A stretch of DNA of 64,000 nt, from the NCBI GenBank assembly GCA_019637335.1, contig JAHBVV010000001.1, forward strand, positions 310,001 through 374,000, written 5' to 3'. Each line of letters opens with the position of its first letter. The first letter of the stretch is position 1. Positions 4,385-50,321 of this stretch are shown piece by piece. Both the position numbers and the translations under genes were made by a program. Source of the stretch: Candidatus Hydrogenedentota bacterium. Lineage in GTDB: Bacteria > Hydrogenedentota > Hydrogenedentia > Hydrogenedentales > JAEUWI01. A model generated the notes under the pieces. It was not told the DNA's origin. It saw nothing but the letters and a program-made list of their open reading frames with translations, and ran no database searches.

Positions 4385-4408
4385 TTTATCGTACGTCGAA
4401 ACTGCGAA

Positions 4409-4499
4409 AAACGTAATGTTTTAGCCGTCTGAAATAGTCACCCTCGTCCACGCGACGGTGGCGGCTTTCGGTGATCGTAAACCGTCATCCCCACGAAAG
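4409..4499 (-). repeat. Left part of an interrupted ~236-bp MITE-like element (MITE-1, copy 1)
   Basis: The sequence matches, in reverse orientation, the right end of the intact copy at 49914-50147, including the terminal repeat (GTAATGTTTTAGCCGTCTGA) and the stretch around AGTCACCCTCGTC. It stops inside a hairpin: CGTCATCCCCA (4483-4493) then CGAAAG (4494-4499). The other half of this hairpin, TGGGTATCCAG, lies at 6572. Joining 4409-4499 to 6572-6716 gives 236 bp, against 234 bp for the intact copy. Confidence 0.75.
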
Positions 4500-4579
4500 G
4501 GGACGTCGATTTAACTGGTGCGGACGCCTCAAAACCCACAAGTTTGTGCTGCTGCCCTACAGCGTCATTCCCGCGAAAG

Positions 4580-6438
4580 GGGCTGTCGATTTAGGCCGCC
4601 GTTGTAGTGAGTATGGTTTTCCATTGGCTCGTTCGGTGGCGCCAGGTTGTCGTGCGCCGCGCCTTGCGAACGTATATGGCCCAGAATGGGAGTCTTTTGT
4701 GCCCAGTTCCATGCATTTTGCCGCTCGTACGGGGAATATTTCCGTTTCCTGGGCCGCCGGAAGCGGATCTCGCCTCCATGGCCAGCAGCTTCTTGAGGTT
4801 GTAGGCGCTACATATCCAATTCCATTCGGTTCGGACCTTTTGGAGGCCCCGCAGGGTGAAGCGCCGGATGCCCATGTTGCCTTTGACGACCCCGAAGACG
4901 CCTTCGATGCCGGGGGATCGTTGCTTGTAGATTTCTTTGCCTTCGGGGGTGGCCATGCGCTGGTCTGCGGCCTCGCGCAGGTTTTCGTGTTCGTCGCGGG
5001 TAATACTGCGCGCGCCCCCTTTGCCTTTGATGCATTCACTGGCCAGCGGGCAGTTGGCGCAGGCCGTGGTCGTGTAGTAGGTGCTTTGCGCACCGTTTTT
5101 GGATGTCCCGTGTTTGTACGGGTCGAGCTTTTCGCCCATGGGACAGTAGTAGGCGTCGGCTTGGGCGTCATAGACGAAGGCGCTGCGGGAAAATTGTCCC
5201 CCGGTCCGGGGCAGCCGGCTGCGGTCCTCTTCGGCAACGGGGACGGACGGGTCGGGGCGGGGGGCCGGATTGCCCGACTTCGAGGCCGAGCGGGTGGGCA
5301 TGTAGGCTTCGGTCCCGTTTTCGGCGAGGGCTTCAAGGACGGGGCCCGCGGCGAAATTCGAGTCGGCCAGAACCGCCCCCACCTTTTCGCCCGTCAGCGC
5401 TTCGGCTGCGGCGACAGCGGGCATTACGGCCCCGGCCTCGTCCGAGTTCACAAGCACGTCGGCGTGGACAATGGCGCCCGTTTGGGATTCCACCGTGGCC
5501 GTAGGCGTATAGTTGGGTCCGAAGCCGCCTTCCTTGTTCGGCAGCATTTGCGATTCGGGGTCAGTCACAGGAACGCGCGCGGGCTTGGCGTTCTTTCCGT
5601 TGTGTTTGCGCGCCTGTTCGTCCCGCTCCTGGGCGATATCAAGGGCTTTTTGGTACTTGGCTCGCTTGGCCTCCAGCCGGGCGATTTCCTTGTTAAGCGC
5701 CGCGAGCGTCGCCTTTTCGTCCTCCGGAGGCGCCAGCCCATCGACTTCGGCCGTTTGCGCGGGCTGCTCCGTCTCCGCGTCGCCCTGCTTCAACGCCTCC
5801 ATCCGCCGGTCCAGTTCCTCGATGAGGTATTCAATGGTCTGGGCCGTCCGGGCGCCCTGTCGGCCGCTGTCCGCCCGAAGCCGGGTGCCGTCGATAATCA
5901 GATGCAGCAGCGCCTCCTCCCGCCGATTCACCAGCGCCCTGGCAAAATGAACCTGCAACGCCTTGATAGCCTCCGCGTGTCGCGTTCGGAATTCGGCGAA
6001 GGTCGAATGGTCCGGCGTGAACCCCTCCAGAAGCCAGATAAAGTCCAGGTCCTTGTGGGACGCCCGCTCCAGTACCCGCGACGAGCGCATCCTGTTCAGC
6101 AGCCCCCACAGAATCGCCCCCGCCAGATAGCGCGGGTGGATGGGCGGCTGGCCCTTGCCCGTGTAGGCCTTCTCCCACGCGGACCAATCCACTTCCTCAA
6201 GAAGCGCAACGAGTACACGCACCGGCGCATCCCCCGCAATCACCTCATCGAGGCGTTGCGGGAAAAGCACGTGCTGCCCCCGCGGCATCTTGGGCGTGGC
6301 AAAACGCATGTCCCGTTTACTCATGGCTGGCTCCCAACGCAGAAAGGGTTTTGCATCATGAGCAATTATACCATATAGATACATATATGTCAAGGTGTTA
6401 TCTGTCATATTTTTAGGCTGAACTTAAACCGACAGCCC
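4580..6438 (-). mobile_element. IS1182-family insertion sequence, apparently intact (1859 bp)
   Basis: Terminal inverted repeats are GGGCTGTCGATTTA (4580-4593) and its near-complement TAAACCGACAGCCC (6425-6438), 13 of 14 matching. The flanking direct repeat is CGAAAG (4574-4579 and 6439-6444). Removing the element restores a perfect hairpin, CGTCATTCCCG-CGAAAG-CGGGAATCCAG, identical to an undisturbed copy at 49987. The single transposase stop codon (4591-4593) lies inside the left terminal repeat. Intact gene, intact ends and a perfect duplication suggest recent insertion. Confidence 0.85.
4591..6324 (-). CDS. IS1182-family transposase (DDE)
   Basis: The 577-residue product has the family layout: an N-terminal DUF772-type region (WSAWEKAYTGKGQPPIHPRY, then LAGAILWGLLNRMRSSR), a coiled-coil stretch (about residues 180-235), a DDE catalytic core and a cysteine-rich stretch (CANCPLASECIKG). 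Likely catalytic acids are the Asp in LIIDGTRLRADS, the Asp in GAVLADSNFAAG and the Glu in IEGVFGVVKGNMG. ATG 6324 (MSKRDMRF) is chosen over 6408 because the upstream 28 codons run back towards the terminal repeat and are AT-rich. The frame is uninterrupted, so the transposase could be active and might also act on the related 201-bp element around it. Confidence 0.9.
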   Translation of the reverse strand: MSKRDMRFATPKMPRGQHVLFPQRLDEVIAGDAPVRVLVALLEEVDWSAWEKAYTGKGQPPIHPRYLAGAILWGLLNRMRSSRVLERASHKDLDFIWLLEGFTPDHSTFAEFRTRHAEAIKALQVHFARALVNRREEALLHLIIDGTRLRADSGRQGARTAQTIEYLIEELDRRMEALKQGDAETEQPAQTAEVDGLAPPEDEKATLAALNKEIARLEAKRAKYQKALDIAQERDEQARKHNGKNAKPARVPVTDPESQMLPNKEGGFGPNYTPTATVESQTGAIVHADVLVNSDEAGAVMPAVAAAEALTGEKVGAVLADSNFAAGPVLEALAENGTEAYMPTRSASKSGNPAPRPDPSVPVAEEDRSRLPRTGGQFSRSAFVYDAQADAYYCPMGEKLDPYKHGTSKNGAQSTYYTTTACANCPLASECIKGKGGARSITRDEHENLREAADQRMATPEGKEIYKQRSPGIEGVFGVVKGNMGIRRFTLRGLQKVRTEWNWICSAYNLKKLLAMEARSASGGPGNGNIPRTSGKMHGTGHKRLPFWAIYVRKARRTTTWRHRTSQWKTILTTTAA

Positions 6439-6565
6439 CGAAAGCGGGAATCCAGTGGAATTCGGAGGTTTGTGCGATCGCGTTGCTGGATCCCCGCGTT
6501 CGCGGGGATGACGGCTCTGCTCATTCCTTCCATAGTGTAGGGCGCCTTAAGTATATCGACAGCCC

Positions 6566-6716
6566 CGTAAGTGGGTATCCAGAGACCATGCAACGTTAAC
6601 CTCGCAAACGCTCTGGATCCCCGCCTTCGCGGGAATGACGAATGCATCCAGTGTAAGCAAGGCATCTCGAATCGGCGAACGCCTTACTCCAGAAGACGAA
6701 AAACGGCATTGACGAA
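6566..6716 (-). repeat. Right part of interrupted MITE-1 copy 1
   Basis: Read on the minus strand it matches 49914-50003, including the segment around AAGGCGTTCGCCGAT. It begins with the target duplication CGTAAG (6566-6571) and the half-hairpin TGGGTATCCAG. The T that replaces the usual C in this arm pairs with the A in the left arm at 4493, so the two half-hairpins match each other and not the consensus. The outer terminal repeat (about 6685-6716) is degraded. Confidence 0.7.
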
Positions 6717-49876: not shown

Positions 49877-49913
49877 TTGGGGCCGCGCGGACGGGTCACC
49901 GTTAGTGTTTGAA

Positions 49914-50147
49914 GTTTCGTAATACTTTTGGCGTCTGAAGTAAGGCGTTCGCCGATACGAGTCGCCTTATTTATGCTGGATGTATTCGTCATTCCCGCGA
50001 AAGCGGGAATCCAGTTGAATTCAGAGGTTTGTGCGATCACGTTGCTGGATCCCCGCGTTCGCGGGGATGACGGTGTTCGATCACCGAGAGCCGCCACCGT
50101 TGGGTACGACGAGGGTGACTACTTCAGACGGCTGAAGAATTACAAAG
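49914..50147 (+). repeat. MITE-1 copy 2, intact (234 bp)
   Basis: Imperfect terminal inverted repeats of about 28 bp (right end TACTTCAGACGGC, left end GCGTCTGAAGTA) enclose an 86-bp twin-hairpin core at 49987-50072. It is homologous to the interrupted copy at 4409-4499 plus 6572-6716 in the opposite orientation. It contains no gene and lies in the 573-base gap between the dehydrogenase and the epimerase. Confidence 0.8.
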
Positions 50148-50321
50148 TCTCTGATTGCTTCGCAATCAGCACACATTGCCGGGACGGCTGCGCCCCGTTC
50201 CTCGCGCGTACGGAAAACGTACTTGCGGGCCGGGCGCGGGCGTCTCGCAGTTTTTTTTAACGTAGCGGCTTGTGTCGCGTTGCTACATCCATTACGGACT
50301 AACACGGGCGGCGGCTTCGCC

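Follow-up and report, generated by a model that had tools for sequence, protein, structure and literature searches.

How does one mobile element come to lie inside a second and the second inside a third, each at the loop of a short hairpin? This question is raised by positions 4405-6704 of the window, by which we mean the whole stretch of 64,000 nucleotides analysed here. Between 4413 and 6696, an insertion sequence (IS) of the IS1182 family lies inside a REP loop of an element that we call MITE-B, and MITE-B in turn lies inside a REP loop of an element that we call MITE-A. The triple nest is real and well preserved, and we account for it by an element whose cargo is its own landing site.

Anatomy of the triple nest

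Read from the left, the nest begins with the 8-bp target duplication of MITE-A, CGAAAAAC (4405-4412), which is matched perfectly at 6697-6704. The first half of MITE-A follows (4413-4499, reverse strand, i.e. reversed relative to the uninterrupted copy at 49919-50143) and ends in the 5' half of its REP hairpin with the loop hexamer CGAAAG (4494-4499), a duplicate made by the insertion of MITE-B and partnered by CGTAAG at 6566-6571. The first 80 bp of MITE-B (4500-4579, forward strand) end in its left REP loop, again with a hexamer CGAAAG (4574-4579), which is the duplicate made by the IS and recurs at 6439-6444. The IS itself is 1859 bp long (4580-6438, reverse strand) and has its ends at 4580-4593 and 6425-6438. 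Beyond it lie positions 75-201 of MITE-B (6439-6565, forward strand), in which the duplicated hexamer forms the first 6 bp and is followed by the remainder of the REPIN, i.e. the pair of inverted REPs, the right arm and the right end. The segment 6566-6696 (reverse strand) comprises the hexamer CGTAAG and the second half of MITE-A (6572-6696), and the second copy of CGAAAAAC closes the nest (6697-6704). Compared with the family length of 225 bp, this outer element lacks ~13 bp at its far end.

The preliminary description of this DNA held that three nested insertions could be taken apart exactly, and scripted peeling reproduced this to the base: taking out the IS and one CGAAAG leaves a 201-bp element with similar ends (4500-6565), what remains once this element and one of the 6-bp duplicates (CGAAAG/CGTAAG) are taken out as well is related to the element placed at 49914-50147, and all three REPIN cores are exactly 86 bp long. 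A genome-wide search for uninterrupted elements, from which 31 copies of MITE-B (29 of them 201 bp long) and 19 of MITE-A (222-227 bp) were compared, likewise bears out the nesting. The boundaries of the outer family had to be redrawn. The perfect 8-bp duplication sets the outer element at 4413-6696, giving 212 bp rather than 236 bp after peeling, and the intact element is not 234 bp but 225 bp long (49919-50143, forward strand), lying between the octamers GAAGTTTC (49911-49918) and AAAGTCTC (50144-50151), which match at 6 of 8 positions. Its 86-bp REPIN core (49987-50072, forward strand) is of the MITE-B type, unlike that of the other MITE-A copies. The pair A4493-T6572, which had been offered as proof that the hairpin arms were once contiguous, is real, but it is a family trait, with A-T in 39 and G-C in 135 of 176 REPs; the duplications together with the intact relatives are the stronger proof of former contiguity. 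What had been missed was the reason for the nesting: the inserting element lands in REP hairpins and also carries them as cargo.

The insertion sequence and the two MITEs

The IS has the terminal inverted repeats GGGCTGTCGATTTA/GGGCTGTCGGTTTA with an intact gene between them; at 4580-6438 its ends are GGGCTGTCGATTTA and TAAACCGACAGCCC, with CGAAAG on either side. The transposase frame (4591-6408, reverse strand; up to 605 amino acids, stop-free) belongs to the IS1182 family, scoring 363.8 bits against the family model NF033551 (cut-off 270) over model positions 2-487 of 488. The genome is a 7.16-Mb draft, in which counts were obtained from searches and fetched stretches. It has one copy of the IS, and the transposase is its only PF13751 match and the only IS1182 transposase found there.

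MITE-B has the same ends as the IS and nothing else in common with it. Identity of the 14-bp ends, the lack of genes, a uniform length (the two compared copies that are not 201 bp long measure 200 and 203 bp) and duplications at most sites mark it as a MITE of an IS1182-family IS. Mean pairwise identity among the 31 copies is 87.5%. Every compared copy has in its middle a REPIN of 86 bp, made up of two inverted CGTC-type REPs, and the REPs are more conserved (97% mean identity) than the two arms (74% and 88%). To judge from the shared ends, MITE-B is probably a non-autonomous partner driven by the transposase of the IS at 4580-6438. The preliminary description had also proposed looking for an empty element, and no MITE-B lacking the REPIN was found in the genome, a search with the two arms joined giving single-arm matches only. 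Contigs end within MITE-A or MITE-B at C1:32, C8:22 and 213831, C12:175901-176020 and C25:104905, and further ends of this kind are at C28:96833-96979 and C41:42832-43011. Because many contigs end in this way, the copy numbers are underestimates and arrays may have been collapsed.

GTAA ends and 8-bp target duplications are traits of the IS66 family, and MITE-A has both. Its 19 paired-end copies are mostly 225 bp long, with flanking octamers identical at a median of 7 of 8 positions, and we infer that it is moved by an IS66-like enzyme. No transposase for MITE-A was recognised by eye in the open frames of two candidate stretches of 1.1-1.2 kb. The MITE-A end sequence occurs 195 times genome-wide (up to 3 mismatches), far above the number of REPIN-bearing copies, so that many gene-less elements of other lengths have these ends; MITE-A-ended stretches are found, for example, at C1:172572-173033 (L093), C1:274914-276020 (L091) and C1:913519-914733 (L092).

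Insertion sites, arrays and relatives

The REPs follow the pattern CGTC-ATYCCCRC-N4-GYGGGRAT-CCAG (176 copies in the fetched stretches) and have the CGTC tag, 8-bp stem, 4-nt loop and CCA tail of CGTC-1 REPs. Two pairs of the stem covary, with two departures each in the 176 copies, and loop sequences vary while the stems are kept. At C20:37120-37647 (L078) four tandem REPINs with a period of 147 bp are present without MITE-A or MITE-B arms, and at C1:106422-107704 (L083) ~10 REPs, several with the stem CCCAC/GTGGG and the loop GAAA, cluster around one MITE-B.

Site usage was analysed for 33 insertions, i.e. the 31 MITE-B copies, the split MITE-B of the window and the window IS. At least one REP arm adjoins 31 of these, and two sites are without a REP; for a site taken at random, the probability of lying in a REP loop is ~0.0003. 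The flanking hexamers agree at 5-6 positions in 25 of the 33 insertions, one more has 7 identical bases, and the duplicated hexamer corresponds to the REP tetraloop plus its closing C-G pair (C-N4-G). The loops used are always those at positions 80-85 and 138-143 when the host is MITE-A, and at 75-80 and 133-138 when the host is MITE-B. A strict 4-bp duplication confined to the loop may also be considered and fits the outer C4 site (TATG) and the isolate AUK107; two sites with 7 identical bases, C1:591253 and the outer site of C5, speak rather for including the closing C and G in the target.

Insertion of one MITE-B into the right loop of another predicts direct repeats of 138 and 69 bp, and insertion into the left loop predicts repeats of 80 and 127 bp. 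The spacings between ends that we observe are 138 bp on contigs C3, C4, C5, C11, C15 and C35, 69 bp on C5 and C11, 127-128 bp on C2 and 80 bp on C6; the nest in the window has spacings of 80 and 127 bp. Unequal recombination between such repeats would yield arrays with unequal numbers of half-units on their two sides. At C1:553913 and C4:180349, the whole REPIN interior of MITE-A is replaced by MITE-B, as expected if both loops were used and the two copies then recombined. Mixed flanks are present at C1:70562, C1:252870 and C1:962257, and the MITE-B-type core of the MITE-A at 49919-50143 could also be explained by recombination.

Similar junctions are found in related bacteria. Among 68 genomes of the phylum, a pattern in which a REP arm adjoins an IS1182-like end, with at most 2 mismatches, gave 42 matches in this genome, 16 in G036, which is of the same genus, 9 in G041, 8 in G045 and 3 in G044; no match to the control, the reversed pattern, was present in any of the 68 genomes. 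The elements in G036 are diverged and 203 bp long, are homologues of MITE-B in reverse with a REPIN in the middle, and lie in REP loops that are duplicated; a DNA search with the MITE-B arms alone missed them. IS1182-like ends in REP loops also occur in other families of the order. In the genome-contig collection the pattern matched 6 stretches, and both a REP arm and a matching far end are present only in AUK107, in which a ~195-bp element with similar ends lies in a REP loop with GAAA on either side. Two other elements with IS1182-like ends in REP loops were observed: one of 581 bp at 975-1556 of G036:C398 (L155), whose left end differs from that of the 203-bp family, and one of 406 bp at ~1104-1524 of G040:C192 (L110), in which no internal REP was detected.

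The transposase is rare, with matches at E <= 1e-30 in three other genomes of the phylum, none of the same genus, and a scan of the genome-contig collection gave no confirmed relatives. The single readable end of an IS relative with 58% identity (L100) is not in a REP. At E <= 1e-30 the transposase is absent from G036, which has the homologous MITE, and a different or lost enzyme must therefore be assumed there.

Alternative explanations, model and known systems

One alternative is that the transposase recognises the shape of DNA and enters any cruciform, REPs being used as the commonest hairpins. This has been proposed for IS1272 of the same family, which takes hairpins without a sequence consensus (PMC5678879, PMC4923244), and it fits stems that are kept while loop sequences vary. 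Five of the sites used here fall short of a full REP (the outer site of each of the C4, C5 and C11 arrays, C8:16375 and C8:80798); each retains one REP arm, with 8, 8, 8, 6 and 6 matches of 8 (at a random site, p = 0.037 for at least 6 and p = 0.0004 for 8), yet of the 8 positions of the stem only 2-5 are paired. Moreover, IS1272 deletes its target, whereas the target is kept here, most sites having both hairpin halves and a duplicated loop instead of a replaced stem-loop. The five sites were chosen post hoc and are not decisive; they point to recognition of a half-site sequence rather than of a cruciform alone, and we consider targeting by shape unlikely.

A still more doubtful alternative is that the REPIN itself is mobile by means of RAYT/TnpA_REP and invaded two kinds of MITE, the nesting being a side effect. 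The 12 Y1_Tnp matches in the genome, the 86-bp core of the same design in two unrelated MITEs and the MITE-B-type core at 49919-50143 are in line with this idea. However, none of the 12 Y1_Tnp genes has a CGTC REP within 1.5 kb, recombination can account for the swapped core, and no REPIN-less MITE-B was found that would mark an insertion. Also, 93 of the 100 perfect-match REPs among the matches listed in a genome-wide degenerate pattern search have an arm of MITE-A or MITE-B beside them; the same holds for 149 of the 176 REPs in the fetched stretches, a figure that is biased upward since some stretches were fetched by MITE similarity. That the nested order is an artefact of assembly is barely conceivable: several contigs (C1, C8, C12, C25, C28 and C41) do end within these repeats, but every junction has duplications, the inner and the outer element both have uninterrupted relatives, and the type of junction recurs in independently assembled genomes.

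We suggest that a REP-targeting IS1182 transposase, a MITE-B carrying its own target, seeding by MITE-A and recombination probably provide the explanation. What speaks against it is that MITE-B and the IS have nothing but their ends in common, that two of the 33 sites are without a REP, that the readable end of L100 lies outside a REP and that G036 has no match to the transposase at E <= 1e-30. In this model, (i) the IS1182-family transposase would put IS1182-ended DNA into CGTC-type REP hairpins, across the tetraloop, and C-N4-G, i.e. the loop and its closing base pair, would be duplicated, (ii) MITE-B, with its IS-like 14-bp ends and a central REPIN with two target hairpins, would use one target and bring in two with each insertion, and for this reason could nest in itself and be open to the full IS, as at 4413-6696, (iii) MITE-A, as a second REPIN carrier, would be placed in non-REP sites by another transposase, to judge from its GTAA ends and 8-bp duplications, and would thereby seed new targets, and (iv) recombination between the direct repeats made by nesting would generate arrays, swapped cores and lost REPIN interiors. 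An element that brings along its own target is able to spread without hitting genes, and the order of the insertions can be read from its nests; this system of nesting in itself shapes dozens of loci in the genome and recurs in related bacteria. More tentatively, and with somewhat less than even confidence, we propose that CGTC REPs are maintained and dispersed in this bacterial order by IS1182-type MITEs, which carry them as cargo and land on the same REPs, in a self-supplying loop that spares genes and sets no limit to nesting.

REPs as IS targets and palindrome targeting by IS1182 relatives are already known. The targets of IS1272/TnSha1 (IS1182 family) in staphylococci are inverted repeats that can fold into a stem-loop, which is removed without duplication and without a sequence consensus (PMC5678879, PMC4923244); loop duplication has been drawn only as the hypothetical pathway c (PMC5678879). 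The system described here shares with IS1272 the transposase family and the stem-loop-forming targets, but it leaves the hairpin in place with a duplicated loop, and its target has the CGTC-REP sequence. Its loci provide numerous natural cases in which an element of the IS1182 family has duplicated the loop, and they suggest a recognisable half-site. REP-targeting ISs have a fixed insertion point in REPs, ISRm22 with 6-bp repeats and ISPsy8 at the hairpin axis; these two are listed as IS4 and IS3, there is no MITE among them, and none is described with an internal REP target (PMC1525189). CGTC-1 REPs have been defined by the CGTC tag, 8-bp stem, 4-bp loop, CCA tail and inverted dimers, with dimers noted within 41-bp palindromes in Halothiobacillus neapolitanus; no dedicated transposase was found for them and their mode of dispersal was left open (PMC3733652). 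In that work no MITE having defined ends and target duplications was found to carry them, whereas here two MITEs can be seen to carry most CGTC REPs, and one of the two also uses them as its target; this bears on the question of dispersal. REPINs consist of two inverted REPs with a short spacer, are dispersed as a single unit and are linked to RAYTs (PMC3116915); here, no RAYT link was found and the unit is carried in MITEs with terminal inverted repeats. Literature searches, which covered open papers, gave no prior account of a bacterial MITE that carries a REP and nests in itself. While the parts are of known kinds, their combination, the arithmetic of the arrays and the carriage of the target as cargo, by which CGTC REPs, with no known transposase, would gain a route as passengers, appear to be new.
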